Positions 514 through 58,376 of a stretch of DNA of 64,000 bases are shown here, piece after piece; positions within the stretch are counted from its first letter, which is position 1; each line of letters starts with the position of its first letter. A model generated the notes under the pieces. That model ran no database searches, was not told the origin of the DNA, and saw nothing but the letters and a program-made list of their open reading frames with translations. The stretch is from Candidatus Zixiibacteriota bacterium (GTDB taxonomy: Bacteria; Zixibacteria; MSB-5A5; GN15; FEB-12), in NCBI GenBank assembly GCA_034003725.1, contig JAVEYB010000004.1, forward strand, positions 62,001 to 126,000. Direction: 5' to 3'. The position numbers were made by a program, and so were the translations under genes.

Positions 514-3500
514 TCAGAGCGCGACGCGAGTGCATCGCACGCGACTCATGACCTGATCGGCAAACGCTTCGAGTCGGGTCTCCTCGCCGGAGTCGCGCAA
601 TCCTTCGTAGCTGATATTGAGCCACGGTATGCCGCCCAGATCGTCGGCGAGCTTTCGGGACAGGGAGCTGACGATTGTGCCCGGCATACAGTTGAACGGC
701 ATTGCGTTGACGATCCCGGAGGCGCCCGATCGCACCATTTCGATAGCTTTGCCGACTGAAAGGATGGCTTCTCCCTTGATATCTTTCGACAGGTAATTCG
801 ACGCAAGGTCCATGACGGAGCTTACCGAGCCTTCGGGTCGAATCGGGAACACCCGGTGGGCGGCGCGCATGATCCGGTGTTCCTGCCAGCGCTGTGTTAT
901 CAACTGCAGGCTGCTGTGTGCCAGCGCCTTGAGATTCCAGTCCTGGATTGCATCGCGCTGATACGTGGTCGACGTGTAAAGCGGCCACTCGGTGAACGTA
1001 GCGAGCCAGACTTCCGTCCCCAATCGTTCGAGCTTGCGAATGAGATTGTTATTGGAGAAGCGGTTGCTTCGCAAATAGATCTCGCCGACGACGCCGACCA
1101 GCGGCTTTGTGGTCGACTTTCGTTCGATCGCGAGAAATGCCCGGGCTGCGGCTTCGGCCACTTCCTCCATCGGCGTATCGTCTCGTACGGCACTGTCCAT
1201 GCGGTCGAGAAACTCGGCGTAGACCCGGTCGGCCTCGCCTTCGACGGCCTCATACGGCCGGGTCTGATGCAGCATTTTCATGAGGCAATCAACCAGCACC
1301 ATGGCCTTCCACGCCGTCGTGCGAAAGCCTGTTCCATCGAGGCCAAACTGCGAGTATCCGTCGCGCGAGTTGGGTGAGAAGATCGGAATATCCCGGTAAC
1401 CGAGCTCATCGAGGATCAGCCTGTGCAGCTGGCTGTATTGCCCGAACCGACACGGACCATCAGCCCCGGGCATGAAAAACACGGAGCGCTTCGGGTCGAA
1501 TCCCGTCGATCGTATCTTCTTGATCATGTCGCCCGTGGTGATGACGCAGGGGAAACATTCTTTACCGGAGGTAAACTTCTGACCGAAGGCGAGGGTAGCG
1601 TCATCCGGTTCCTCGAGCACTTCGGCAGTCAGTCCATACCGGTCGAAAGCCGCCCGCAGCGCGTAGGCCTGGTCGCACATATTGGGAATGTATATGGTCT
1701 TTTCGAATGGTCGAAAGTCATCCTGCGAGATACTGAACTCGGTGATGGGCGGCCGATAGCGGTAAAAGCGCAGCGAGTCCAGAAACGCTTCGCACCGTGT
1801 GATCAGTCCTGCATCGGCTGAGTGTTCGTCGAGTTCGAGCTGCAGATACGGCTTGCCTGTCATGGTCCGACGGAAGTAGTGCGTAATGAAGGAGTCAGGA
1901 CCGCACCCGAATGAGGTGATGTACACGGCAAACAGGTTTGGGTGAGTGCGGATGAACCTCGCAGCCGACATGATTCGGCGTCCGTAGCGCCAGTACATAG
2001 AGTCATTGAGCGAGCCTTCCTCTTCCGGAAGGGGCAGAAAGTCGATCGAAATGACTTTGTAGCCGAGGGCGCGAATTTTGTCGGGCAGTTCCATGGAGAG
2101 GCGGCGGTCGAAGCCGTTGTACGGGCGGCTGACAATGACCAGAACCTTCTCCCCGCTTTGGAGCCCTTCAAGTATTTTCTTTCCTTCCGCCCTCAGTTCT
2201 TCTTTGAACGCCCGGTAGGCATTGATTCCGGCTCGAGTGGCGCGGGTTAAATCGCGTTCGCCGATATTGAGTTCTTTCGCGATCGCGCGAAGGCGCCGGC
2301 GTGTGTCGGGGAGGTCGTAACTGAGCTGTACCGGCGCGTCGACGAACCGGATACCGAGTTTGGAAAAGTCAAATCGAGCGCGTATGGACGATCCGACGGA
2401 CTGCACGTACGGACAGCTGTATGCTCCCTCGTCGCTGGACTCATTTTCTTCGGCAGTTTTGATGAGTGACGGAAGAAAAATAACATCGACTTTTTTCGCG
2501 ATCAGGTTGTTGACGTGTCCATAGACGAGTTTGACCGGATAACACGTTTCCGCCGCAAAGAGCTCAAGCGAATCTTCGACAATCCGGTGGTTACTGACGT
2601 CGGAAAGCACGATGCGGAAGTCGAGCGCCTCGAAGAAGGCCATCCAGAACGGGTAGAACTCGTAGAAGTGCAGCGCGCGCGGAATGCCGATTCGTTTCAG
2701 AGGCTGCCGTGGCTGTTTGTACCGACCGCGACGGCGGTACAGCCCTTTCTGCCGCATGGTGGAGTAATCGCGCGGGAGGGTTCGTTCGGCGGTGCGATTA
2801 ACCTCGTATTTTTCGCAGCGGGCGCCGTAGAACAGGGGTTGTTCACCTTCAATCTCCACGCGGCGGATTTCGCAGTGGTTCGAGCACTCTTCGCACGGAA
2901 ACGTGGCCACGTTGTACTTTCGCTTATACAGCTCGAAACCCTTGAACCGGGTTTGGAAACCCGTCTCCCCGACCTTTTCGATAGCCAGGATGGCGGCGCC
3001 GATCGCGCCGGTGACGTCGTGGTGCGGCGGCACCGTTATCTTCCGACCGATCAGATTCTCGAAGGCGGCGACGACACCTTTGTTCCAGGCGACGCCGCCC
3101 TGGAAGAAGATGTTTTCGCCGATCTTGCGATCGCCGACGACTTTGTTGAGATAGTTGCTCGCGATCGAGTATGCCAGCCCCGCAATGAGGTCATCCTTTT
3201 TGGCACCCGACCGCATGTGGGCGACCAGATCGGACTCCATGAACACCGTGCAGCGTTCCCCGCATCCGACGGGGCATGTCGCACAGAGGGCGCGGTCGCC
3301 GAATTCGGTTTCGATGTTGATTTTCAGCTTCTCGGCCTGTTCCTGCAGGAAGGAGCCGGTTCCGGCGGCGCAGGCCTTGTTCATCTCAAAGTCGACGACG
3401 GCTTTGTTCTCGATTGAGATGTACTTGGAGTCCTGGCCCCCTATCTCGAAGATGGTATCGACGGTTGGATCTATGTTGATCGCGGCGGTGGCCTGGGCGG

Positions 3501-4701
3501 TGATTTCATTGCGGACGATGTCGGCGCCTATAAAGTCGCCGATGAGGTATCGGCCGGAGCCGGTGGTGCCGACGGCGGCGACGTTCACGCGACCGTTCAC
3601 TTCCAGCCCGATTTCCGCCAGCCCCTTGCGAACGGCTTCGATCGGCCGGCCCTCGGTCATAAGATAGCGCCGGGCGATAACCCGGTGATCGGAATCGATC
3701 AAAACGAGGTTGGTGGACAGCGAACCAACATCGACGCCGAGGAAGACGTCGAGTTTGTCGAAGCCGGTCGGCGGATCAGCGGTCGTGACGGCGTAGAATT
3801 TGGAGTCGGGGTGATCGTAAGTCAGGGCCTCGCGACCGCGTTCGGCATCTTCGCGGTACTCGAGATAGGCGGCGAGCCGGTCGGGGTCAAAAGGGTCCAC
3901 CAACGCGCGCTGATCGTTCGCCAGCGCCGCGGCTCCGATTGCCGCCACCACGTTGAAGCCATCGGGGATAACGAGCTCGCCGTCGGCGAGTTCAAGCACA
4001 TCGGTGAAGGCGCGCACCATACCGGGGTTGGCGGCCACTCCCCCTTCGAACGCGATCGGTTTCTCCAGTCTTTTGCCGCGCGCGATCGCCGATTTGAAAT
4101 TTCTCGCCACGGCAAAACACAGGCCGGCGACTATGTCATAATCGGGGGTTGCGATCTGCTGGAGGTGGATCATATCGGTCTTGGCGAAAACCGAGCATCG
4201 TCCGGCGATTCTCGGCGGGTTACTCGATTTGAGGGCGAGGGCGCCAAACTCGTGCTCGATATCAATCTTGAGACGACCGGCCTGCTGATCGAGGAACGAG
4301 CCCGTTCCGGCGGCACACTGCGCGTTCATGGCGAAATCGACGATCGTGCGGGACTCGGGATCAAGCAACAGCAGTTTGGAGTCTTCTCCCCCCATTTCAA
4401 TGACCGTGCGGACATGCGGCACGACACGGAAATTGCCCGCCGCGAGCGCGGCGATTTCTCCGAACGCTTTTCCCCGAAGTACAGATTGGCTCGTCTTGGC
4501 CCCGATGCCGGTGTGCCCGAGGTAGATGGTTCCGCCTGCCAGATCGCCGAATTCGGTTTCGAGAAGTTGGCGGAGCGTTTCGAACGGCCCGTCGTCGAAC
4601 CGGCGGTAGACGCGCCGCACGATCTGCCCCTCGGCCAGCAGAACCAGTTTAACGGCAACGGATCCAATGTCGATGCCGAGCGAAAGGACCGGATGTGCCA
4701 T
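514..4701 (-). CDS. Double-module acyl-CoA dehydratase activase (BadF/BcrA family + DUF2229)
   Basis: A 1395-residue protein of the activator family for 2-hydroxyacyl-CoA dehydratases and benzoyl-CoA reductases, which use ATP hydrolysis to pass a low-potential electron to the target enzyme. Two ASKHA-type ATPase modules run in tandem: residues about 5-270 (GIDIGS, GGEDSK, CAAGTGSF) and about 315-585 (GVDVGS, GGQDSK, CAAGTGSF). The second has an extra cysteine cluster, CATCPVGCGERC. The rest is a DUF2229/CoA-activase C-terminal region beginning near RIGIPRALHFYEF. The cysteine in each CAAGTG motif is the expected ligand of a bridging [4Fe-4S] cluster. No dehydratase subunit is encoded nearby, so the substrate is unknown. 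There is no convincing ribosome binding site before the ATG. Confidence 0.9.
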   Translation of the reverse strand: MAHPVLSLGIDIGSVAVKLVLLAEGQIVRRVYRRFDDGPFETLRQLLETEFGDLAGGTIYLGHTGIGAKTSQSVLRGKAFGEIAALAAGNFRVVPHVRTVIEMGGEDSKLLLLDPESRTIVDFAMNAQCAAGTGSFLDQQAGRLKIDIEHEFGALALKSSNPPRIAGRCSVFAKTDMIHLQQIATPDYDIVAGLCFAVARNFKSAIARGKRLEKPIAFEGGVAANPGMVRAFTDVLELADGELVIPDGFNVVAAIGAAALANDQRALVDPFDPDRLAAYLEYREDAERGREALTYDHPDSKFYAVTTADPPTGFDKLDVFLGVDVGSLSTNLVLIDSDHRVIARRYLMTEGRPIEAVRKGLAEIGLEVNGRVNVAAVGTTGSGRYLIGDFIGADIVRNEITAQATAAINIDPTVDTIFEIGGQDSKYISIENKAVVDFEMNKACAAGTGSFLQEQAEKLKINIETEFGDRALCATCPVGCGERCTVFMESDLVAHMRSGAKKDDLIAGLAYSIASNYLNKVVGDRKIGENIFFQGGVAWNKGVVAAFENLIGRKITVPPHHDVTGAIGAAILAIEKVGETGFQTRFKGFELYKRKYNVATFPCEECSNHCEIRRVEIEGEQPLFYGARCEKYEVNRTAERTLPRDYSTMRQKGLYRRRGRYKQPRQPLKRIGIPRALHFYEFYPFWMAFFEALDFRIVLSDVSNHRIVEDSLELFAAETCYPVKLVYGHVNNLIAKKVDVIFLPSLIKTAEENESSDEGAYSCPYVQSVGSSIRARFDFSKLGIRFVDAPVQLSYDLPDTRRRLRAIAKELNIGERDLTRATRAGINAYRAFKEELRAEGKKILEGLQSGEKVLVIVSRPYNGFDRRLSMELPDKIRALGYKVISIDFLPLPEEEGSLNDSMYWRYGRRIMSAARFIRTHPNLFAVYITSFGCGPDSFITHYFRRTMTGKPYLQLELDEHSADAGLITRCEAFLDSLRFYRYRPPITEFSISQDDFRPFEKTIYIPNMCDQAYALRAAFDRYGLTAEVLEEPDDATLAFGQKFTSGKECFPCVITTGDMIKKIRSTGFDPKRSVFFMPGADGPCRFGQYSQLHRLILDELGYRDIPIFSPNSRDGYSQFGLDGTGFRTTAWKAMVLVDCLMKMLHQTRPYEAVEGEADRVYAEFLDRMDSAVRDDTPMEEVAEAAARAFLAIERKSTTKPLVGVVGEIYLRSNRFSNNNLIRKLERLGTEVWLATFTEWPLYTSTTYQRDAIQDWNLKALAHSSLQLITQRWQEHRIMRAAHRVFPIRPEGSVSSVMDLASNYLSKDIKGEAILSVGKAIEMVRSGASGIVNAMPFNCMPGTIVSSLSRKLADDLGGIPWLNISYEGLRDSGEETRLEAFADQVMSRVRCTRVAL

Positions 4702-5030
4702 AGCAATCTAGAAAGTAGGTTCGAGTTTCCTAGACGGCAAGGAGAATGTCGCCTGGGCGGAGGCGTAAATATATACCTTTTTGGACCTTAGGTATCCGCG
4801 AGCATTGGCGCGACCATGCGGACCCGGGAGGCTCATGTGAAAATAGTAGCATGACACGTCGTCGGTCGAAGATGGGAATGTAGATTAGTTTTATCCGTAT
4901 CCGACCTCACCAAGGGCTCCCCCTGTTTTGCCTAACCATCTATAAAGCAATATATTAGGTACAAGATTCACTTCTCCTCGGGGCGGGGAACTTTTTCTTC
5001 ATGGAGTCGTTAAGAAAATACTTTACAAAC

Positions 5031-23179: not shown

Positions 23180-25102
23180 CTATCCGCCGACCAGCTCGTG
23201 TTCCTGAGCCTTCGGATACAGATGGAGCATCGGCCGCTTGATCATTTCCCACTCGTTCTTTCCGGGGATCCAGCGGCAGTTGGCGAAGCAATGCCAATTG
23301 GCCTCGTCCATCGTCGGGAAGTCAGTGCGGCGGTAGTATCCCGGCCAGCGAGTCTCTTCGCGGAAGAGAATCGTGCGGGTGTGGGCCTCGGCCTGCCACA
23401 GGCGCTGGACGTTTTCCCAGCACCGGAGCAGTTCGTGCAGGTCCGCAGCCGCGAGGTTCGCAGAGTCTTCCTTCAAGAAGGCCAGCAGTTCGAGGGCACG
23501 GTCGAGACACGCCTTGTTGGTGGCGAACTGCGCGGAGACGCCTCCGACGTACTCGTCCATGATCTTCTGCAGGCGGAACATGAACATTTTCGGCTTGATG
23601 TAGTGCGGGTTGATTTCCGGGTCGGTCGTCTTGCCGGAGAATTCGGCAAAGACATCCAGCGGCTTGAACTGGGCTTCGATCATCTTGTCGACGGCGGCCG
23701 TGTCCATGGACGGCAGGGTGTTGTTCTCGACGACGAACTTCACCGCGGCCTTACCGCAGATGCGACCTTCGGCATGCGAGCCAGAGGAGAACTTGTGCGA
23801 GGAGGCACCGGAGGCGTCACCAGCACAGAACATTCCCTTGACGGTCGACATGTGGCTGTAACCCCAGAAATAGTCGTTTTTGGTCTGGCCGTTCTGGAGG
23901 TCTTCCGGACCGGAGATCCAGGCGCCGGAGGCGCCGGAGTGTGAACCGATGAAATACGGCTCAGCGGCAGCGATCTCAGACGAGCGCTTCTCGGGCTCGA
24001 CGTTGTTGGCGGCCCACAGAATCGCCTGCGAAATCGTCATATCGAGGAAGTCTTCCCAGGCCTCGGCTTCGAGCTCTTTCAGTTTCTTCTTGGCGGCCTT
24101 TTCGTCGCCGGCATCGGCAGCGATCTTCTGGATGGCTTCGGCCGTCCGCATGAAGATCGGGCCCTTGCCTTCCATCACATCGAGCATGCCAAGCCAGTTG
24201 CGCAGGTTGGCCGGAATCGGCTTGACCAAACCGTAGGGCTTCCAGCTCTCCAGCTCGTCCTTGCGCTCGATCATGTAGTTGCCGCCCATGGCGTTGGTCG
24301 CAGCCGACTTGAACAGCAGGAACCATGCGCCGACCGGACCGTAGGCATCCTTGAAGCGCACCGGGATGAACCGGACTTCCTGCGACGTCATTTCGGCGCC
24401 GGCGCGAAGCGTGAAGTAGGCCGATGAACCGGAGTTCCACGGCGGATACCACGCACGGCCGAGACCTTCGCCGGTGCTGCGCGGCTTGAAGACGTGCACG
24501 GCACCACCCATGGCGACGATCACCGACTTGGCGCGGAACACATACGCCTTGTTCTCACGGGTCGAAAAACCGATCGCACCGGCGATCCGGTCACCATCGA
24601 GAATCGGCTCGGTGATGAACACGCGTTCAAAGTACTCTCCGCCCGCTTCCTGGAGCGCGTTCTTGGCGGCTTCGGCGACGATCACCTTGTACGATTCGCC
24701 GTTGATCATCAGCTGCCAACGACCTTCGTGCACGTAGCGGCCTTCCGCGTCTTTCCAAATCGGCAGACCCCACTTCTCGAAGAGGTGGACGGTCGAGTCG
24801 ACGTGGCGGGCGATATTGGCCACCAGGTCTTCGCGGATAATACCCATGAGGTCCATGCGGACGTAGTCCACGTAGTCCTTCACGGTGTTTTTGCCTTCAT
24901 GCAGGCCGACGTACTGGTTGATGGCGGAGAGGCCCATGGCCACGGCTCCGGAGCGATCCATCGCCGCCTTGTCAACCAGCGTCACCTTGAGGCCGTTTTT
25001 CTTCGCCCAGTAGGCAGCTTCCACCGCTGCGCCACAGGCTGCCATGCCACCACCGAGGATCAGAAGGTCAGTGGTGACTTCCACTTTTTCGAATTTAGCC
25101 AT
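23180..25102 (-). CDS. aprA: Adenylylsulfate reductase alpha subunit AprA
   Basis: A 640-residue flavoprotein of the fumarate-reductase/succinate-dehydrogenase superfamily that reduces APS to sulfite and AMP. The FAD-binding site opens the protein (LLILGGGMAACGAAVEAA), and later family segments include FVPRSTGEGLGRAWYPP-like FKPRSTGEGLGRA, HSGASGAWISGPEDLQ and the AprA-typical AGDASGASSHKFSSGSH. Length is near the family norm. The start codon is preceded by GGAAGGAACG. It follows aprB after 21 bases. Presence with sat, qmo and reductive-type dsr genes indicates the reductive direction, though the protein alone does not fix it. Confidence 0.98.
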   Translation of the reverse strand: MAKFEKVEVTTDLLILGGGMAACGAAVEAAYWAKKNGLKVTLVDKAAMDRSGAVAMGLSAINQYVGLHEGKNTVKDYVDYVRMDLMGIIREDLVANIARHVDSTVHLFEKWGLPIWKDAEGRYVHEGRWQLMINGESYKVIVAEAAKNALQEAGGEYFERVFITEPILDGDRIAGAIGFSTRENKAYVFRAKSVIVAMGGAVHVFKPRSTGEGLGRAWYPPWNSGSSAYFTLRAGAEMTSQEVRFIPVRFKDAYGPVGAWFLLFKSAATNAMGGNYMIERKDELESWKPYGLVKPIPANLRNWLGMLDVMEGKGPIFMRTAEAIQKIAADAGDEKAAKKKLKELEAEAWEDFLDMTISQAILWAANNVEPEKRSSEIAAAEPYFIGSHSGASGAWISGPEDLQNGQTKNDYFWGYSHMSTVKGMFCAGDASGASSHKFSSGSHAEGRICGKAAVKFVVENNTLPSMDTAAVDKMIEAQFKPLDVFAEFSGKTTDPEINPHYIKPKMFMFRLQKIMDEYVGGVSAQFATNKACLDRALELLAFLKEDSANLAAADLHELLRCWENVQRLWQAEAHTRTILFREETRWPGYYRRTDFPTMDEANWHCFANCRWIPGKNEWEMIKRPMLHLYPKAQEHELVGG

Positions 25103-25612: not shown

Positions 25613-26839
25613 TTATTTCTTCCTGGCGTCGCCGGTCGCATGACCGTGCAGTTTCACTTCCACTTTCTCGTCTTCCTCAAGCTCGGCGTAATACTGACGC
25701 AGAATCTCGAGGACTTCCGGACGGCTGAACTCTGCCGGAACACTTCCGCCCTCGGACAGCGCTTTGCGCAGTGCCGTGCCGGAGAGGAAAAGGCGGTCTT
25801 CCTTGCCGTGCGGACAGGTCTTCATCGAAGACATCCCGCCGCACTTGAAGCACCAGAAGGTCCAGTCGATCGGCAGCATCTTGCACAAGAGGGCTCCGTC
25901 CCACAGCTTGAAGAAGATTTCCTGCGCATCGAACGGGCCATAATAGTCGCCGACGCCGGCGTGGTCGCGGCCGATGATCATGTGCGTGCAGCCGAAGTTC
26001 TGGCGGAAAACGGCGTGCAGGAGGCCCTCACGCGGGCCGGCATAGCGCATGTCGAGCGGGTATCCGCCGGTTACCACGCGATCCTTCACGAAGTAGTTCT
26101 CAACCAGGGTATTGATGCACTTAACGCGCACGTCCGCCGGGATGTCGCCGGGCTTCAGGCCGCCCACCAGCTGATGAATGTACAGACCGTCGGAGACTTC
26201 GACTGCGATCTTCGCAAGATACTCGTGCGACCGGTGCATCGGGTTGCGAAGCTGCAGGGCCGCGATGGACTTCCAGCCTTTCTGCTCAAAGATCTTGCGG
26301 CTCTCGGCAGGGCGCTGATAGATGCCCTTGAAGTGCTCGGGGAAATAGCTCTCGGAGAGCACCTTCACGGGGCCGGCGATGTTCCACGGCTTCTGGGCCA
26401 TGACCATCTTGACGCCGGGGTGCGCTTCATCGGTTGTCGAAAACACGTGCTTGCACTCGAAGGCCTTGTCGATCTGATAAGACTCGGTCACCTTCATCGT
26501 ACCCATGATCTCCTGCGTCTCGCCGGAGATGAGGGTGATCTCCGTTCCCGGGTCGATCTTGCTGTCGTGAGAGAGCGTGACCGGAATGGGCCAGAAGATG
26601 CCGTTGGTCATCTTCATGTGCTCGCAGACACCCTTCCAGTCGTCCTTGCCCATAAAGCCGTCGAGCGGAGTGAAGCCGCCGATTCCGAGCATGATGAGGT
26701 CGCCGGTTTCACGCGATGTCATCACCACTCTGGGTAGCTTCTCGGCGCGTTTTAACTCGGCTGCCCTCTCCGCTCCTTCGAGCAGCAGGATCTTCAGTTT
26801 GTCACTGCCATGCGGCGGGATCAGCATTGAAGTTGCCAT
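25613..26839 (-). CDS. sat: Sulfate adenylyltransferase (ATP sulfurylase)
   Basis: A 408-residue dissimilatory-type ATP sulfurylase, which activates sulfate with ATP to APS. The active-site motifs are [12 protein letters not shown] (about residue 198) and [17 protein letters not shown] (about residue 293). A metal-binding cluster of the type found in sulfate reducers, CFKCGGM...TCPHG, is near residue 330. The ATG at 26839 is chosen over an upstream in-frame codon because GGATAGGAAG lies 7 bases before it and the protein starts normally there. It has its own promoter with two flanking operator-like sites. Confidence 0.97.
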
Positions 26840-26898: not shown

Positions 26899-26916
26899 AT
26901 GTGACTTTTTTCACAA
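26899..26916. promoter_or_regulatory. Operator-like site, ATGTGA-CTTTTT-TCACAA
   Basis: Near-perfect inverted repeat in the sat leader, at about +53 to +70 from the predicted start of transcription. It matches the recurring window element and fits both the Rex and CRP/FNR (HcpR) consensus. Confidence 0.65.
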
Positions 26917-26974
26917 GGCGCAACAAGGAATACAGGCTGCAATCCGTCCTTCTCCCTTTTGAGGGACTGCTTCG

Positions 26975-27003
26975 AATCTAAAGCCGGTCCCAGTGAGTGT
27001 CAA
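26975..27003 (-). promoter_or_regulatory. Probable sat-aprBA promoter
   Basis: On the minus strand TTGACA (26998-27003), a 17-base spacer and TAGATT (26975-26980). The leader would be about 130 bases. Flanked by two operator-like sites. Confidence 0.65.
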
Positions 27004-27008
27004 GCGAA

Positions 27009-27026
27009 AAGTACCTTTTTTCACAA
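27009..27026. promoter_or_regulatory. Operator-like half-site upstream of sat -35
   Basis: AAGTAC-CTTTTT-TCACAA. One half is perfect and the N6 is identical to that of the site in the sat leader; the other half is degenerate. It begins 6 bases upstream of the -35 hexamer, the same position as at qmoC and qmoA. Confidence 0.5.
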
Positions 27027-27435: not shown

Positions 27436-27464
27436 TTGACAGCATAGATACGTCGGTCTATTAT
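27436..27464 (+). promoter_or_regulatory. Probable qmoC promoter
   Basis: TTGACA (27436-27441), 17-base spacer, TATTAT (27459-27464): a near-consensus sigma-70 promoter. The leader to the qmoC ATG is about 70 bases. Confidence 0.75.
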
Positions 27465-27538: not shown

Positions 27539-28714
27539 ATGGCTGCCCGACGATTGGTGGAACCGGATCTTGCTCTGATCCGGGAGGTAAAACGGGTCGG
27601 CGGGGACACCGTAAAACGCTGTTATCAGTGTGCGACCTGTTCGGTGGTCTGTTCCCTGTCACCGGCCGACCGCCCTTTTCCCCGCAAGGAGATGATTCTC
27701 GCGCAATGGGGACAGCGGGATCAGTTGGTGGCCGATCCCGATATCTGGTTATGTCATCAGTGTAACGACTGCACCCAGCGTTGCCCGCGTGGGGCCCGTC
27801 CGGGCGATGTGCTCGCGGCCGTTCGTTCGTATGTATACGAGTATTTTGCGTTTCCACGGTTCATGGGCAAGGCCCTGGCGACTCCGGCGGCGTTGAGCTG
27901 GCTGATCCTCACGCCAATCCTGTTGCTCGCTGCGGCGGTATTGGCTTTTGCACCGAGAACCCCTGATGGTGCTTTTGCGTTTCTGCACAGCACAGTAGTC
28001 GATTTTGACATTTTCCTGCCGCACAGTTCGGTGGACGCCCTGTTCGTATTCGGTAACATCCTCGTATTTCTCTTTGCGGCTATCGGCTTCAAACGGTTCT
28101 GGAATGGTTTGCAGGCGGGCAACCCGGGCGAGCGGATGTCATTCGTCTCGGGATTGGTCTTGACGGTCAAAGAGATTTTCGCCCACAGTCGGTTCCGTTC
28201 GTGCGACGCCAACCGCGCTCGCGCGACCGCTCACATGTTGTTGTTGTTCGGATTTGTCGGTGCGATGATCACTACCGGCTGTGTGTTTGTGTTTGTATTC
28301 ATTCCGCATTACCTGCATCTGCTGGGACTCGAGAGCATGAGTTCGTTTTTCGGACTGCCGATCGAATTGCCTCACCCTGTCAAGATCCTGGGGGCAGCAA
28401 GCGGGTTGGCTCTCGTAATCGGAGGGGCCATGGCCATATACCGCCGCTGGAGTGAGCGGGACCGGGTGGGCGCGAACGGCTATACCGACTACCTGTTCCT
28501 GTATGTCTTGTTCGTTGTCGGGTTAACCGGTATGCTTTCGTGGCTCGTTCGCTGGGCGGGGCTGGCGCTACCGGCATACACTGTTTACTTCATCCATATG
28601 GTCAGCGTGTTTTTCCTGCTGTGGTATATGCCGTACTCGAAATTCGCACATATGATTTATCGCACGCTCGCTCTCGTTTATGCCCGTCAGATCAATCGCC
28701 TTCCGAGGTCATGA
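27539..28714 (+). CDS. qmoC: Quinone-interacting oxidoreductase subunit QmoC (HdrC-HdrE fusion)
   Basis: A 391-residue membrane subunit. The N-terminal 100 residues are HdrC-like with two [4Fe-4S] motifs, CYQCATCSVVC and CHQCNDCTQRCP; the remainder has six predicted membrane helices with histidines suited to haem b, as in HdrE/NarI. In sulfate reducers QmoABC takes electrons from menaquinol for AprBA. The ATG has AAAGGAG 6 bases upstream. It is the only qmoC here and stands alone next to sat, while qmoAB lie 20 kb away on the other strand. A generic HdrCE-type subunit is the alternative, but the length, sat neighbour and shared operator favour QmoC. Confidence 0.88.
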   Translation: MAARRLVEPDLALIREVKRVGGDTVKRCYQCATCSVVCSLSPADRPFPRKEMILAQWGQRDQLVADPDIWLCHQCNDCTQRCPRGARPGDVLAAVRSYVYEYFAFPRFMGKALATPAALSWLILTPILLLAAAVLAFAPRTPDGAFAFLHSTVVDFDIFLPHSSVDALFVFGNILVFLFAAIGFKRFWNGLQAGNPGERMSFVSGLVLTVKEIFAHSRFRSCDANRARATAHMLLLFGFVGAMITTGCVFVFVFIPHYLHLLGLESMSSFFGLPIELPHPVKILGAASGLALVIGGAMAIYRRWSERDRVGANGYTDYLFLYVLFVVGLTGMLSWLVRWAGLALPAYTVYFIHMVSVFFLLWYMPYSKFAHMIYRTLALVYARQINRLPRS

Positions 28715-45922: not shown

Positions 45923-46999
45923 CTAGAACGTTAGGTGGGTTGACCGCTTATAGGTCAGCCCGGCATGCTTGAAGTCGTCGATATGTTCTTTCTGGAACGG
46001 GATGTCGGCCATCCGGAAGAACTTCGGCCAGCCGATTCGCTGAATCCACTCGCCCATCCGTTCGTGGTTGCGGGCGTTCGCCGCCCACAGTTCCACCAGC
46101 CTTCGGACCGCATCGGTCACTTCCGGCCAGCGCGGCGGATTGTTGGAAATAAACGGAATAGCGAGTTTCGAGAACATCGGCTCGTGACGCGCGTTGGACA
46201 CCTTGCCTCCGACCCAAATCGACACGCCATCATTCAGCGGATCGTTCAACGGCATCGACGGACAGACGGTGTAGCAGTTGGCGCAGAACATGCAGTTGTC
46301 CTCGATCACTTCCACTGACTGGTTGCCATCGACGATCGCCGGTCGAATTGCGGCCGTCGGGCACGCGGCAACCACGTTCGGGATCTCACACTGCTTCTTG
46401 AGCATCTCGTGGTTTACTTTCGGAGGACGGCGGTGAATGCCCAGGATGGCGATATCCGAACAGTGTACCGCGCCGCACATGTTGAGACAGCACGCCAGTG
46501 CGATACGGAGCTTGCCCGGCAGCTTCTTCCGACCATCGAAGTACTCAATCAGGTCGTCCATCACGCACTTCACGATTCCCGACGCATCGGTGGCCGCCGA
46601 GTGACAGTGCACCCAGCCCTGTGTGTGTACGATCGAAGTGATCGCGTTCCCGATGCCACCAACCGGGTGACCGATCTTCTGCAGATCGGCGATAAGCGGG
46701 TCGATATTCGACGGGTCGGTCAACAGGAACTCGACATTGTGCCGGCTGGTGAATCGCAGATAGCCGCCGGTGTATTTGTCGGCCAAGTCCGCATAAATGC
46801 GGATTTTGTCGATACTGAGCAGACGGCCAGAGGACGCGCGAACCGTGTACAGCTTGTCGCCGGTTTCCGAGACGTGTACCATGACACCCGGCTTAAGGAT
46901 CTCATGATATTTCCACTTGCCGTAATTCTGCTTGATAATCGGCGGCAAGAACCTCTCATAGTGTGGCGGGCCGAAGTCCGTCCGTCTTTCTACTGCCAT
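45923..46999 (-). CDS. dsrB: Dissimilatory sulfite reductase beta subunit DsrB
   Basis: A 358-residue DsrB. The sirohaem/[4Fe-4S] binding residues lie in [18 protein letters not shown] (about residues 130-150) and [15 protein letters not shown] (about residues 168-182), and the inserted ferredoxin domain shows [12 protein letters not shown] near residue 235. With DsrA it reduces sulfite on sirohaem. It lies 54 bases after dsrA. Confidence 0.98.
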
Positions 47000-47053: not shown

Positions 47054-48268
47054 TTACGACTCGGTCTCCTCTTCGTCGCCGCTGTCTTCCTCGAAGTATT
47101 CTTCATAGAAGACGTAGGGATTCTCACGGGGATGAGCAACCATCTCAGGGATGGGCTCGACACCGATCGCATCGAGGAAGTTCCCCAGACCGACACGCTG
47201 GATGAACTCGCCGACGCGTTCGCGGTTTTTGCCCTCTTCGCACCAGAGATCCCAGATGCGCTCGATGAGGTCCTTCAGCTCGTCATACGGCGGTTCCATT
47301 TTCATGAACGGAACGAGAACCGATGACAGCTGAGCGCCCTCCACGATCGGCGCTTTGGAACCGATCAGGATCATGCAGCCTCGATCCTTGCCGGGGCGCA
47401 GCGCCTTGGGCATTACGTTGATGCAGTGCATGCACTTGACGCAGTAGCTGTTTTCGATAGACAGCTCTTTGCCGTTCCATTCCATGCACTTGCCGGGGCA
47501 GTGCTCGACTACGTCTTGCTGGATATTCAGGCCCGTATCCACGTACTTTTTCACCTCGGCCTGATCCATCTGGATATCGTCGCGCCAGGTTCCGATGAAG
47601 GACATGTCGGCACGCGCTATTGAGGCCACGCAATCGTTTGGACACCCCGAAAATTTGAACTTGAACTTGTAGGGAAACGCCGGGCGATGCAGCTCATCCT
47701 GGAAATCCTGGGTGAGTGTGTAGCATGCCTTCATGGTGTCGTAGCAAGCCCACTCGCACCGCGCCATGCCGTTACAGCAGCTGGGGGTCCGAAGGTCCGA
47801 TCCCGAACCACCGATGTCGAAGTCAATCTTGGCCAGCTCTTCGAATATCGGCTCCAGTTGTTCGGTGCGGGTACCGAGGAACACGATGTCGCCGGTTGAA
47901 CCGTGCATGTTGGTCAATCCGGAACCATGGCGTTCCCAGATGTCGCACAGTTTGCGCAAGGCCTCGCTGGTGTAAAACCAGCCGGCCGGCTGGTTGATTC
48001 GCATCGTGTGAAAATGCGAGATTCCCGGAAACTTGTCGGGCAGGTCGGAATACCGACCGATCACGCCGCCGCCATAGCCCATGACGCCGACGATTCCGCC
48101 GTGTTTCCAGTGTCCGATTTTCTCGTGATACGACTGCTCCAGCTGCCCCAGAAGATCGTTGGCCATCGGAGAGCGCTTCGCCGCCATCTTGATTTCCTTG
48201 ACGAAACTCGGCCAGGCACCCTTTTCCAGTTCATCGAGCAACGGGGTCTTGTATGTTGTCTCCGCCAT
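47054..48268 (-). CDS. dsrA: Dissimilatory sulfite reductase alpha subunit DsrA
   Basis: A 404-residue DsrA. Cluster and sirohaem ligands are in [15 protein letters not shown] (about residues 168-180) and [17 protein letters not shown] (about residues 215-225); the ferredoxin domain shows [20 protein letters not shown] precedes the ATG. It is the first gene of a six-gene leftward run dsrA-B-D-N-L-C, behind a promoter with operator-like sites. Confidence 0.98.
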
Positions 48269-48343: not shown

Positions 48344-48361
48344 TCGTTATTTTTTTCACAA
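48344..48361. promoter_or_regulatory. Operator-like site, TCGTTA-TTTTTT-TCACAA
   Basis: Lies in the dsrA leader at about +68 to +85 from the predicted start of transcription. It keeps the same strong TTGTGA half as at the other sites (read on the minus strand). Confidence 0.55.
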
Positions 48362-48435: not shown

Positions 48436-48464
48436 TATCTAATGAATTCCGGTTAATGCGTCAA
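48436..48464 (-). promoter_or_regulatory. Probable dsrA promoter
   Basis: On the minus strand TTGACG (48459-48464), 17-base spacer, TAGATA (48436-48441). The leader to the dsrA ATG would be about 160 bases. Confidence 0.65.
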
Positions 48465-48471
48465 GCCCAAA

Positions 48472-48489
48472 ATGTGAAAATTTTCTTTA
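48472..48489. promoter_or_regulatory. Weak operator-like half-site upstream of dsrA -35
   Basis: ATGTGA-N6-TCTTTA, beginning 8 bases upstream of the -35. Only one half matches; it is listed because the position is the same as at sat, qmoC and qmoA. Confidence 0.3.
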
Positions 48490-48714: not shown

Positions 48715-50937
48715 TTACATCCCTTTGTAGGGATTGAACCCGATCCCGCTTATCTCTTCCACAAAATCATCGAAGATATTAGGGAGCTTGTAGTATTCGT
48801 TAATGGCCAGTTCCACGATCTGCACGCGCTCCTCTTCCAGCACCAGCTGAGTCAACTTCTCACGGACGTTATCCATCCGGTAGTTGGCTAACTCCGACCC
48901 GCGGATAAAGTGGCACTGGTAGTCGTCGCCGCGCTTGCACCCGATCAGTATGATGCCGTCGAATCCCGACGCCAGCGCATCGGACACCCACACGGCGTTC
49001 ATCGATCCGAGGCAGCGCAGGGGGATAATCCTGACAAACGGCGAGTACTTCATCCGTTTGATCCCGGCCATGTCGACCGATGGGAGGGCGTCGTTTTCGC
49101 AGACAAACGCCAGGATTCGCGGCTTCTCGTCGAACTCGTCGGGCATGCTGATGGACTTGATCATCTTGGAAATCATGTTGACCGAGTAGTTCTTAAACGA
49201 AATGATTCGCTCCGGACAGGCGCCGAGGCAGACCCCGCACCGACGACAGCGGGTCGGATTCGGCAGCGGAGTCCCTTTCTCGTCCTCGTCCAACGCACCG
49301 AACGGACACTCTTCCGTGCAGCGCTTGCACTGCGTGCACTTGGTCATGAAGAAGTCGGGGAAGCTGCTATCACCGGCCCTCGGGTGGACCGCACTCCCCC
49401 GTGAGATCGCCTCGACCGCCTGGATGGCCTTCAGAGCCGCTCCGTAGGCGTCGGAGACCGACGCTGCAAAATCCATAGGGGAACGCACCGGGCCGGCCGC
49501 ATATATGCCCGTGCGACGGGTTTCGTACGGGAAGCAGATGAAGTGGCTGTCGGGGAAACCGTACTTGAGGGTCGGCAGGTCGGTGCCCTGGCGATACCCG
49601 AGGTTGATCAGATGGGCGCCTTTCTCGGCGCCGGCGGCGGCCTTCTTGCCGTCTTCGAGCAGAGCCTCATCGGCCGCATCCGCTGCAACAGGGATATCGT
49701 CGGGTTTGTTGGTTGTCACCATGCCGGTGGCAAGAACCACCATGTCCGCCTTTATGGTGATGTCTTCTCCGAGAAGGGTCTCAGACACATCAATGGCAAT
49801 CTGATCACCATCCGGCCTGACGCTGCCGATTTCTCCCTTGGTCAGGAACATACCGTCGTCGGTCTGCGCGTGCTGGTAGAAGAGCTCGTACTGCTGCGGT
49901 GAGCGGATGTCTTTGTAAATCACGTAAATCCTGGCATCCGGGTACTTTTCGCGCACGTACATCGCCTGCTTCAAGGAGACACGGCAGCAGACTGTCGAGC
50001 AGTAGGGCAGGTGGTCCTGATCGCGGGAGCCGGCGCACTGAATGAATGCGATTGAGCCAATCGGCTTGTTGTCGGACGGACGCTTCATCTCTCCCGACAG
50101 CGCCAACGCTTCCATCTTCACGTTGGTGATGATGTTCGGGCTGGAGCCGTAACCGAGATGGGATAGCTTTTCGGCCGGATATGGCGTCCACCCGGTCGCG
50201 ACGACCATCGCACCAACTTTGAACGACGGTGCGTCCGAGCCGTTTCTGAGCGTGACGTCGAATTTCCCCGGTGCGCCCTTGGCCGATTTTATCTGTGAGT
50301 TCGTATGAACCACAATGTTGTCGTGCGTCTCGACAGCCTTGACCAATTCAGGATACCCGGAGTCCTGCAGTTGCCGATACGGCGGTCGTTTCGGAAACAC
50401 TCTGGAAAATGACCGTGCCCAACCGCCCAGCTGCGGCTCCTTCTCGACCAGATGCACGCGGTAACCGGCGTCGGCCGCGGCTCGGGCCGCGGTCAATCCG
50501 GTCATACCGCCGCCGATGACGAGAATGTCCTTGCTGGTTTCCTCGATAAGAGGCACCGCCGGTTCAGAGGTCTGCACTTTGACGATACCCATGCGCAGGT
50601 AGTCCTCGACGAGCATCTGCGTGTCTTCGTCATTCGGCTCGTGCGCCCACGCGCCGTACTCGCGGATATTCGCGCGTTCGGTCAGTACCGAGTCGCCGAA
50701 TACGAAGAGCTCAGGAAATACGCGCTGGGAGCAGGCCGCGACAACGACCCGATTGAGCCCTTCAGTTTCGACATCTTTGCGGATGGTTTGTATTCCCTCG
50801 GCGCTGCACCACGCGTCATGCGTCTTGCAGACAGGCACGTGGTATTCGCCGGTCGCGACGGTAACCAGCTTGTCGACGTCGATCGATGACGCGATTTCGC
50901 AGCCCTTGCATATATAAACGCCAACCTTGGTGTCCAT
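48715..50937 (-). CDS. qmoB: QmoB, HdrA-like flavoprotein with MvhD-type domain
   Basis: A 740-residue soluble subunit of the Qmo complex. An N-terminal cysteine segment (YICKGCEIASSIDVDKL) precedes an HdrA-type FAD domain (VIGGGMTGLTAARAAADAG), two [4Fe-4S] motifs near residues 535-585 (CTQCKRCTEECPFGAL, CRRCGVCLGACPERI) and a C-terminal MvhD-like domain with cysteines in VCEND, RCLGS and IGCKRGDDYQC. This domain order is that of QmoB. It follows qmoA after 3 bases. No qmoC follows it. Confidence 0.95.
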   Translation of the reverse strand: MDTKVGVYICKGCEIASSIDVDKLVTVATGEYHVPVCKTHDAWCSAEGIQTIRKDVETEGLNRVVVAACSQRVFPELFVFGDSVLTERANIREYGAWAHEPNDEDTQMLVEDYLRMGIVKVQTSEPAVPLIEETSKDILVIGGGMTGLTAARAAADAGYRVHLVEKEPQLGGWARSFSRVFPKRPPYRQLQDSGYPELVKAVETHDNIVVHTNSQIKSAKGAPGKFDVTLRNGSDAPSFKVGAMVVATGWTPYPAEKLSHLGYGSSPNIITNVKMEALALSGEMKRPSDNKPIGSIAFIQCAGSRDQDHLPYCSTVCCRVSLKQAMYVREKYPDARIYVIYKDIRSPQQYELFYQHAQTDDGMFLTKGEIGSVRPDGDQIAIDVSETLLGEDITIKADMVVLATGMVTTNKPDDIPVAADAADEALLEDGKKAAAGAEKGAHLINLGYRQGTDLPTLKYGFPDSHFICFPYETRRTGIYAAGPVRSPMDFAASVSDAYGAALKAIQAVEAISRGSAVHPRAGDSSFPDFFMTKCTQCKRCTEECPFGALDEDEKGTPLPNPTRCRRCGVCLGACPERIISFKNYSVNMISKMIKSISMPDEFDEKPRILAFVCENDALPSVDMAGIKRMKYSPFVRIIPLRCLGSMNAVWVSDALASGFDGIILIGCKRGDDYQCHFIRGSELANYRMDNVREKLTQLVLEEERVQIVELAINEYYKLPNIFDDFVEEISGIGFNPYKGM

Positions 50938-50940
50938 GGC

Positions 50941-52218
50941 CTACCTCCTCGCTTCTGCCGTCATTGCCTTGAGCGCAGCACCGGTGGCGTCTTGAATCGA
51001 GCTTGCCACATCCATCGGCCTCAGCGCCGAGCCGGCGCCGATGATGCCGCAATCTCCGTCGGCAACCAGAAATCCGAACTCGTCGATCGGTACATCGAGC
51101 GGCGGCGGTTGATCAGCTGAATTCGGCACCATACCGATCGCGAGAACGGCCATATCAAGTTCGGCTTTGGTTATCTGTCCGGTCATCGTGTTCTCGGCCT
51201 CGAGAATCACGTTGCCGGTGGCCGGGTTTTCCACGATTTTGCCGACCTTTCCGCGGTGGAAATGCATTTTCGTGTCAGCCTGCCGGGCGACATAGAAGTC
51301 TTCATACCGTCCGGGTGACCGGACGTCTATGTAGAACATGTGGACGTCGGCGTCGGGATACCGCTCCCGCACGTAGGTCGCCTGTTTCATTGACGCCAGG
51401 CAACAGACTGCAGAGCAGTACGGCAGGTGGTTTTCGTCGCGAGACCCGGCGCATTGGACGAACCCAATACTCTTGATTTCTTTCTTGTCGGACGGCCGCA
51501 GGATCCTGCCTCCCGTGGGACCGGACTCCGACGCAAGTCGTTCCATGATCACGCTGGTAACGACGTTTGGAATACGTCCGAAGCCGAGATTGTCGATTTT
51601 CGTGGCGTCGTAAGGTCGCCACCCGGTTGCCCACACGATCGCCTTCACGGTGGCTGTGATCGTTCGCGGCTGCATTTCAAGATCGATCGCGCCGTGGGGA
51701 CACGCCTGCGCCACCTTCTTCATCCGCTCATCCGCTGCGTGTGCGGCATCGACTACATAGCGATGCGGGTAAGCCATCAGATGCGGCAGATAAATCGCCT
51801 TTGTCTTGTCGAGGCCGTAGTTCAGGTCGTTGTCCCGCTCGATGTCGCAGACTTTTTCGCATTCGCCGCACAGCGTGCACTTGTCGGTCACATATCGGGG
51901 GTTAAGACGAATGGTTACCTCGTAACGGCCGGGTTGTCCGGTCACGGACACAATCTCCGCGAGCGTCAGAACCCGAACCTTGTCTGTTACGCGAAGTCGC
52001 TTGAGATTGATCTCAATCCCGCACGATGGCGGACAAAGCTTCGGGAAGTACTGATTGGTCGCCAGAACACGCCCGCCGATCGTAGGCTTTCGTTCGATGA
52101 GAATGACGTTGCGACCGACCTCAGCGGTCTCAATCGCAGCCGTCATGCCGCTGATTCCGCCTCCGACGACCAGGGTGTTTGCTGATATTTCGTTCTGGAG
52201 AGGCTCAAATTCCGCCAT
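50941..52218 (-). CDS. qmoA: QmoA, HdrA-like flavoprotein
   Basis: A 425-residue HdrA-related subunit. It opens with an FAD site (NTLVVGGGISGMTAAIETAEVG), has one [4Fe-4S] motif (CTLCGECEKVCDIERDN, near residue 140) and the family segment GFVQCAGSRDENHLPYCSAVCC. ATG at 52218 follows AAGGAG at the right distance; two upstream in-frame ATGs lie within that site. With QmoB and QmoC it passes electrons from menaquinol to AprBA, possibly with electron confurcation. Confidence 0.95.
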   Translation of the reverse strand: MAEFEPLQNEISANTLVVGGGISGMTAAIETAEVGRNVILIERKPTIGGRVLATNQYFPKLCPPSCGIEINLKRLRVTDKVRVLTLAEIVSVTGQPGRYEVTIRLNPRYVTDKCTLCGECEKVCDIERDNDLNYGLDKTKAIYLPHLMAYPHRYVVDAAHAADERMKKVAQACPHGAIDLEMQPRTITATVKAIVWATGWRPYDATKIDNLGFGRIPNVVTSVIMERLASESGPTGGRILRPSDKKEIKSIGFVQCAGSRDENHLPYCSAVCCLASMKQATYVRERYPDADVHMFYIDVRSPGRYEDFYVARQADTKMHFHRGKVGKIVENPATGNVILEAENTMTGQITKAELDMAVLAIGMVPNSADQPPPLDVPIDEFGFLVADGDCGIIGAGSALRPMDVASSIQDATGAALKAMTAEARR

Positions 52219-52373: not shown

Positions 52374-52402
52374 AGTAAAGGCACACGTGTCCATATTGTC
52401 AA
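52374..52402 (-). promoter_or_regulatory. Probable qmoAB promoter
   Basis: On the minus strand TTGACA (52397-52402), 17-base spacer, TTTACT (52374-52379). The leader would be about 150 bases. A second TTGACA further downstream lacks a good -10. Confidence 0.6.
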
Positions 52403-52408
52403 GGTCTT

Positions 52409-52426
52409 ATGTGAAAAAAGTAACTA
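52409..52426. promoter_or_regulatory. Operator-like site, ATGTGA-AAAAAG-TAACTA
   Basis: Begins 7 bases upstream of the qmoA -35 hexamer, centred near -50, as at qmoC. Confidence 0.6.
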
Positions 52427-56909: not shown

Positions 56910-58196
56910 TTACACCCAGCCGCGGTCGCGACAGGCCCGGGCGACCCGGTCTACCGCGATGAGATACGCGGCGTTGCGCATGTTCTGTTTGCGGCGCTGC
57001 GCCAGTTCGCTGACCGCCAGATATGCGGTCGTCATCTTCACATCCAGCTTGCTCAGGACTTCCTCTTTTTCCCAGAAGTAGTTCATGTTGCTCTGGACCT
57101 GTTCGAAATAGCTGCATGTAACGCCACCGGCGTTGCAGAGAAGGTCGGGGACTTGCAGCACTTTCCGATCGAAGAGTACCTGGTCGGCTTCCGGAGTGGT
57201 CGGACCGTTCGCTCCTTCGGCAACGATTCTCACCTTCGAGCTGATTTTCTTGACGGTGTCCGCGGTAATCTGATGCTCAAGGGCCGCCGGTACAAGTATG
57301 TCCACATCCTGAGAAATCCAGGAATCTCCGGGCAGGATTTCATAGCCGAGGTCCTTGGCTTTGGCCTTGTCGATGCCGCCAAATCGGTCGGTAATCCCCG
57401 CCAGCTCGTCGACCTTCACGCCGTCGGACTTGCGGAAAGCGTATGAGGTCTGGTCCCTCTGATCCCAGCACGACACGCACACGCAGGTTCCGCCCATCTG
57501 GGTATACAAACGGATGGCGTGTTGAGCCACGTTTCCGAATCCCTGCACTGACGCTGTCGTATTACTGGGTGGAATCCCGAGTTCCTTCAGCGCCTCGCGA
57601 ACCGTGTACATGACGCCGAACCCGGTTGCTTCTTTTCGTCCCAGGGAGCCGCCCATACCGACCGGCTTGCCGGTGATGAATCCCGGCGCCTTTTCGCCGC
57701 GAATCATCTCATACTCATCGAGCATCCACAGCATGTGCTGGGCCGATGTCATGACGTCGGGAGCCGGTACATCCTGATACGGACCGACATTGCGCGCCAA
57801 CTGACGGACCCAACCGCGACAGAGTCCTTCCTGCTCGCGCGAGCTCAGGTTGTGCGGATCACAGATCACGCCACCTTTGCCCCCGCCAAGCGGAATGTCA
57901 ACGGTCGCGCATTTCCACGTCATCCACATCGCCAGGGCGCGCACCGTGTCCAGCGTCTCCTGCGGATGGAACCGGATGCCGCCTTTGCTCGGACCGCGCG
58001 AGTCATTGTGTTGAACCCGGAATCCCCGGAAAACCTGTACCGATCCATCGTCCATTCGCACGGGGATCAGAAAGCTGTATTCCCGAACCGGATTGCGAAG
58101 AAATTCGCGGACTGCTGAGTCCAGTTCCAACATGTGCGCAATCTTGTCAAACTGCGACTGTGCCATTTGAAACGGGTTAAAAGACGAAGCACTCAT
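56910..58196 (-). CDS. gdhA: Glutamate dehydrogenase (Glu/Leu/Phe/Val dehydrogenase family)
   Basis: A 428-residue member of the family, with FRVQHNDSRGPSKGGIRFHP (about residue 60), the catalytic segment CATVDIPLGGGKGGV (about residue 95) and a Rossmann domain near QGFGNVAQHAIRLY. Sequence type is that of the hexameric small GDH found in many bacteria and archaea. It interconverts glutamate and 2-oxoglutarate with ammonia. ATG at 58196 follows AAGGGG at 8 bases. Its promoter carries the same operator-like element as the sulfate-reduction genes. Confidence 0.95.
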   Translation of the reverse strand: MSASSFNPFQMAQSQFDKIAHMLELDSAVREFLRNPVREYSFLIPVRMDDGSVQVFRGFRVQHNDSRGPSKGGIRFHPQETLDTVRALAMWMTWKCATVDIPLGGGKGGVICDPHNLSSREQEGLCRGWVRQLARNVGPYQDVPAPDVMTSAQHMLWMLDEYEMIRGEKAPGFITGKPVGMGGSLGRKEATGFGVMYTVREALKELGIPPSNTTASVQGFGNVAQHAIRLYTQMGGTCVCVSCWDQRDQTSYAFRKSDGVKVDELAGITDRFGGIDKAKAKDLGYEILPGDSWISQDVDILVPAALEHQITADTVKKISSKVRIVAEGANGPTTPEADQVLFDRKVLQVPDLLCNAGGVTCSYFEQVQSNMNYFWEKEEVLSKLDVKMTTAYLAVSELAQRRKQNMRNAAYLIAVDRVARACRDRGWV

Positions 58197-58358: not shown

Positions 58359-58376
58359 TTGTTACAAAATTCACAA
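58359..58376. promoter_or_regulatory. Operator-like site, TTGTTA-CAAAAT-TCACAA
   Basis: Lies across about +1 to +17 of the predicted gdhA transcript, a position that fits repression. Arms match the qmoC and qmoA sites exactly. Confidence 0.6.

Follow-up and report, generated by a model that had tools for sequence, protein, structure and literature searches.

Predicted Rex operators recur in preferred positions around the sulfate-reduction promoters of a Zixibacteria genome

Introduction

How is the central pathway of a sulfate reducer switched on and off, and what part in this is played by the similar sites that lie in pairs around the sat, qmoA, and dsrA promoters of a Zixibacteria genome? 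Outside Desulfovibrio little is known of the switching of this pathway; within Desulfovibrio, Rex repression of sat is the documented case. The DNA considered here, referred to as the window, is a 64,000-nucleotide stretch of a Candidatus Zixiibacteriota genome that comprises 3.73 Mb in 35 contigs. Zixibacteria with a Dsr pathway are already on record (PMC10591310), and the nearest named records to the sat protein of the window are Candidatus Zixiibacteriota/GN15 metagenome-assembled genomes. A preliminary description of the window, based on its letters and open reading frames, reported one site just above the -35 hexamer and another downstream of the start at each of the three promoters, and regarded the repeated layout as a designed pair that might allow repression by looping, or activation from the upstream site with repression from the downstream one.

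Experimental Procedures

Promoters in the window were inferred from matches to -35 and -10 hexamers. Upstream regions were compared in gene-bearing relatives and then in new genomes, mostly of other families in the same class, with a maximum of 44 Zixibacteria genomes. The start of each operator was measured from the first base of the -35. The weight matrix was built from 43 sites, all from genera other than that of the window.

Results

The genes, promoters, and sites are collected in Table I. The six sites near the sat, qmoA, and dsrA promoters are present as first described, with small clarifications, and their centre-to-centre spacings are 110 bp for the sat pair, 118 bp for the qmoA pair, and 128 bp for the dsrA pair; it should be noted that the interval 26899-27026, to which the preliminary description was attached, covers the sat pair only. 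The transcription starts expected from the inferred promoters fall near 26968 (sat), 52367 (qmoA), 48429 (dsrA), and 27471 (qmoC). The inventory of the preliminary description was incomplete in that a stronger site at qmoC and another at the glutamate dehydrogenase promoter had been overlooked. At qmoC, which is divergent from sat and separate from qmoAB, the upstream operator stands alone, a downstream partner being absent in the window.

Table I. Genes, inferred promoter elements, and predicted Rex sites in the window
Feature	Position	Strand	Remarks
sat (sulfate adenylyltransferase)	25613-26839	-	first gene of its operon
aprA	23180-25102	-	after sat
qmoA	50941-52218	-	assigned from HdrA-type matches and gene order
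qmoB	48715-50937	-	after qmoA; assigned from HdrA-type matches and gene order
dsrA	47054-48268	-	
dsrB	45923-46999	-	after dsrA
qmoC	27539-28714	+	divergent from sat, apart from qmoAB
Glu/Leu/Phe/Val-type (glutamate) dehydrogenase gene	56910-58196	-	
sat upstream Rex half-site, TTGTGAAAAAAGGTACTT	27009-27026	-	TTGTGA half intact, other half poor; 5 bases above -35
sat -35 (inferred), TTGACA	26998-27003	-	17-bp spacer to TAGATT at 26975-26980
sat downstream Rex operator (predicted), TTGTGAAAAAAGTCACAT	26899-26916	-	
qmoA upstream Rex operator (predicted), ATGTGAAAAAAGTAACTA	52409-52426	-	6 bases above -35
qmoA -35 (inferred), TTGACA	52397-52402	-	17-bp spacer to TTTACT at 52374-52379
qmoA downstream Rex operator (predicted), TTGTGAAATTTATAACAA	52291-52308	-	top matrix score in window
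dsrA upstream weak Rex site, TAAAGAAAATTTTCACAT	48472-48489	-	TAAAGA/TCACAT; 7 bases above -35
dsrA -35 (inferred), TTGACG	48459-48464	-	17-bp spacer to TAGATA at 48436-48441
dsrA downstream Rex operator (predicted), TTGTGAAAAAAATAACGA	48344-48361	-	
qmoC upstream Rex operator (predicted), TTGTGAAAAAAATAACAA	27412-27429	+	6 bases above TTGACA at 27436-27441
Glutamate dehydrogenase Rex operator (predicted)	58359-58376	-	directly after -10

In a matrix scan of 63,983 window positions, the six named sites took ranks 1, 4, 5, 6, 8, and 9, with the qmoA downstream site at rank 1, the qmoA upstream site at rank 6, and the sat upstream site at rank 9; ranks 2 and 3 fell to the qmoC and glutamate dehydrogenase sites, and rank 7 to position 4835. 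The upstream sites of sat and dsrA scored 6.0 and 6.8, and the others between 16 and 27. When ≤2 mismatches are allowed, the core pattern TTGTGAAAAAANTNAC is present 6 times in the 64-kb window as against 0.19 expected, a number that no shuffle reached, and a looser palindrome also occurs 6 times as against 1.67 expected, a number reached by 3 of 100 shuffles. In the whole genome the palindrome with ≤2 mismatches gave 107 matches, compared with 48 for the reversed control, so that roughly one in two matches of this loose kind is noise. The probability of finding by chance an equal upstream site at a gap of 4-8 bases above the -35 is 0.00075 for sat, <0.00005 for qmoA, and 0.0012 for dsrA, and the corresponding chance probability for the downstream sites of the three genes is ≤0.00015. 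The Rex-type site at rank 7 (4835-4852) lies about 130 bp upstream of a BcrAD/BadFG-type activase gene (514-4701, encoding 1395 residues).

Within the genus, among the three congeners G000-G002, the upstream sites are identical at 18/18 (sat), 17/18 (qmoA), and 15/18 (dsrA) positions and the downstream sites at 18/18, 15/18, and 16/18, respectively. Site identity is thus 83-100%, compared with 40% (sat), 34% (qmoA), and 47% (dsrA) in the rest of the same intergenic regions. Constraint thus acts even on the two weak upstream elements, those of sat and dsrA. Loss of one of the two sites in all relatives, the finding that the preliminary description had named as evidence against its reading, is not seen; the sites are conserved and are paired around the three promoters.

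The matrix consensus, TTGTGAAATATTTCACAA, together with its TTGTTA half-site variants, has the form of a Rex operator, TTGTGAA-N4-TTCACAA or the TTGTTA variant. The Staphylococcus aureus Rex operator is TTGTGAAW4TTCACAA (PMC2883068), and the TTGTTA variant is known for Rex of Thermoanaerobacterium (PMC5886521). The genome has a single rex gene (contig C7:108076-108720), which encodes a 215-residue protein with an N-terminal DNA-binding domain (PF06971) and a Rossmann NAD-binding domain (PF02629); its best match among solved Rex structures has E = 1.9e-47. The rex promoter carries a near-perfect operator directly after its -10, here and in 24/25 genomes, and further genomic sites precede nuoA, a malic enzyme gene, and the glutamate dehydrogenase gene, all normal Rex-type targets. 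No rex gene was found in G057, an assembly 83% complete from a relative with conserved dsrA sites. Seven rex promoters (e.g. L149, L144, and L161) have a second, weaker operator that starts 16 nucleotides before the -35, a slot different from the upstream slot of the sulfate genes.

Across the relatives the operators fall into a small set of slots, for which the following counts are approximate, the promoter finder being simple, the assemblies incomplete, and the related genomes not independent: the slot from -26 to -22 is filled at qmoC in 22/24 genomes, at dsrA in 30/37, at qmoA in 10/41, and at sat in 9/44; the slot at +10, over the -10 hexamer, at sat in 31/44; the slot from +26 to +45 at rex in 24/25, at qmoA in 13/41, and at dsrA in 12/37; and the slot from +71 to +110 at sat in 20/44, at qmoA in 21/41, and at dsrA in 6/37. 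The upstream slot, in which operators start 23-25 nucleotides before the -35, is filled almost universally at dsrA and qmoC but only in a minority of genomes at sat and qmoA. At dsrA, most relatives have TAATGAAATTTTTCACAA or a near copy, with one half deviating, 7 bases above the -35, and at qmoA most have the downstream operator only. The genus of the window has lost the +10 operator of sat, whereas most relatives have one over the -10; its -35 and upstream element TACTTTTCGCTTGACA have been retained (compared with CACTTTTCGCTTGACA in G059). Outside the phylum, the sat promoters of Desulfacinum and its relatives have weak single sites, LCP-89 and a few other records show some sites, and the promoters of Bacteroidetes-labelled, acidobacterial, and proteobacterial records mostly have none.

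Within the genus the pairs are kept with spacing changes of ≤3 bp; in wider relatives downstream sites are common and their distances vary widely. The fixed, designed pair of the preliminary description is not supported, since qmoC and many qmoA promoters have a single operator, sat in most relatives has one over its -10 instead of above the -35, and the downstream distances are not constant. Predicted Rex operators recur in preferred slots rather than as a fixed pair.

Discussion

The motif, the presence of an operator at the promoter of rex itself, the other Rex-type targets, and the conservation and positions of the sites, all of which are read directly from the DNA, make it almost certain that these sites bind Rex, and NADH-relieved, multi-operator Rex repression of the sulfate-reduction pathway is their probable function. 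We infer the binding of Rex, its response to NADH, and the direction of the effect from sequence, and the activation from the upstream site envisaged earlier finds no support, the regulator being by homology Rex, a repressor in the cases consulted. At low NADH, Rex dimers would occupy the operators and repress sat-apr, qmoAB, qmoC, and dsrAB, the operons for sulfate activation, electron delivery, and sulfite reduction; when NADH rises, Rex would be released and the pathway turned on. Relative to the inferred start, the upstream operator spans about -59 to -42, where Rex is likely to compete with the contact between the RNA polymerase α-subunit and the UP element and would also crowd the -35. 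An operator over the -10, as at sat in most relatives, or near +1 would block the polymerase directly, and a downstream operator centred at about +60 to +80 may act as a roadblock or as a second occupancy step. The upstream sites are weak at sat and dsrA and strong at qmoC, which suggests graded responses among the sulfate-reduction promoters.

A different role for the pairs would follow if the Rex dimers bound upstream and downstream made contact by looping of the DNA or within a helically phased complex, the pair then being the functional unit. The genus keeps its pairs with little change in spacing, and in the discovery genomes the spacings, in clusters grouped by hand, concentrate in helical phase (R = 0.64 at 10.5 bp, p = 0.008). 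However, when a phase prediction fixed beforehand was put to held-out genomes, p was 0.11 at the period stated in advance and the mean phase was 2.1 bp as against 3.8 bp in the discovery genomes, and the p = 0.007 obtained for pairs of ≤130 bp comes from a cut chosen after the fact. Helical phasing is not claimed, because the held-out genomes did not clearly uphold it; the phase signal across relatives is suggestive only. The window spacings of 110, 118, and 128 bp share a helical register no better than chance (P = 0.26), and the two operators do not always occur together, as looping would require: a single operator is present at qmoC and at many qmoA promoters. We therefore regard looping or phased cooperation as a possible but unlikely account of these pairs. 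A more elaborate scheme, in which operators in fixed, helically phased slots (with centres near -50, over the -10, near +1, and at +60 to +80) would build a cooperative multi-operator complex linking the entire pathway, and dsrAB with it, to NADH, and in which the slot above the -35 may even contact the polymerase in an activating way, seems to us rather unlikely.

Two further alternatives concern the upstream sites alone. The weak sat and dsrA elements might be AT-rich UP elements that merely resemble half-sites, Rex acting at these promoters only from downstream. Their low matrix scores, the runs of A and of T that lie where an UP element would be, and the constant distance to the -35 are consistent with this, but near-perfect full Rex sites stand in the same slot at qmoC and at several qmoA promoters, and the sat element keeps its TTGTGA unchanged within the genus, so that such an origin is improbable. 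Alternatively, the upstream sites could belong to a CRP/FNR-type (HcpR-like) activator or repressor, with only the other sites being those of Rex. The genome encodes one CRP/FNR protein (C10:23381-23587, HTH_Crp_2 E = 2.5e-18), the recognition helix of which reads ETLSR; this we take to be the FNR/HcpR type, and its presumed preference for TTGA-like halves is at odds with the upstream sites. In Desulfovibrio, HcpR was the regulator to which the same palindrome at sat and apsAB was originally ascribed (PMC545781), and Rex is reported there to recognize sites that do not differ from those of HcpR1 (PMC5701242). Against this, one half of the qmoC upstream site reads TAACAA, a variant known for Rex (PMC5886521), and the same motif is present at rex itself; an HcpR-like owner of the upstream sites is very unlikely. 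The palindrome of the Desulfovibrio HcpR regulon, TTGTGA-N6-TCACAA, is the same and likewise overlaps the sat/aps promoters (PMC545781), but the TTGTTA halves and the rex-promoter site of the present genome point to Rex.

Rex control of sat has a precedent in Desulfovibrio vulgaris Hildenborough (Christensen et al. 2015, as related in PMC7531388), where Rex is reported to repress sat, the sat transcript to rise when rex or the site is lost, and the mutant IR1and2, without the Rex site at sat, to make more transcript. The regulator family, operator type, and gene are those of the present case, and the strain name implies two inverted repeats at sat. At Desulfovibrio sat the site lies across the -10 (PMC545781), an arrangement found in most Zixibacteria relatives and not in the genus of the window; in addition, qmoA, qmoC, and dsrA here carry operators as well, and the slot above the -35 is conserved. 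Two Rex sites upstream of a single gene are also found at S. aureus ldh1, where they give two gel-shift bands (PMC3544828), and at adhE of Thermoanaerobacterium saccharolyticum, where they were proposed to explain stronger control (PMC5886521). At ldh1 the distance between the two sites, which lie at -160 and -218 relative to the start codon, is 58 bp, whereas the present pairs are 110-128 bp apart and flank the promoter.

The sites of the window are genuine and well conserved, and a known regulator accounts for them in large part. Promoters with two Rex sites have been described elsewhere, but the set of operator positions and the extension to the key gene dsrA were not found in the literature searched. 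The operator layout and its phylum-wide conservation appear to be new, as does the presence of operators at dsrA and at the two qmo units. Throughout an uncultured phylum, predicted Rex control now takes in sat-apr, qmoAB, qmoC, and dsrAB, and it would link NADH/NAD+ directly, and in a falsifiable manner, to how strongly the marker gene of the pathway, dsrAB, is expressed. The operator positions are conserved enough for testing with synthetic promoters and purified protein.

Some minor observations concern sat. A second, distant ATP-sulfurylase homologue, at another place in the genome (L002, G000:C6:19955-21109), has about 29% identity and a 589-residue open frame. A reading of the downstream sites as second promoters was set aside, as inspection found no -10 at those of the window; it does fit the sat gene of G021, upstream of which (L028) there are two tandem promoters, with an operator over each -10 and a third site between them.
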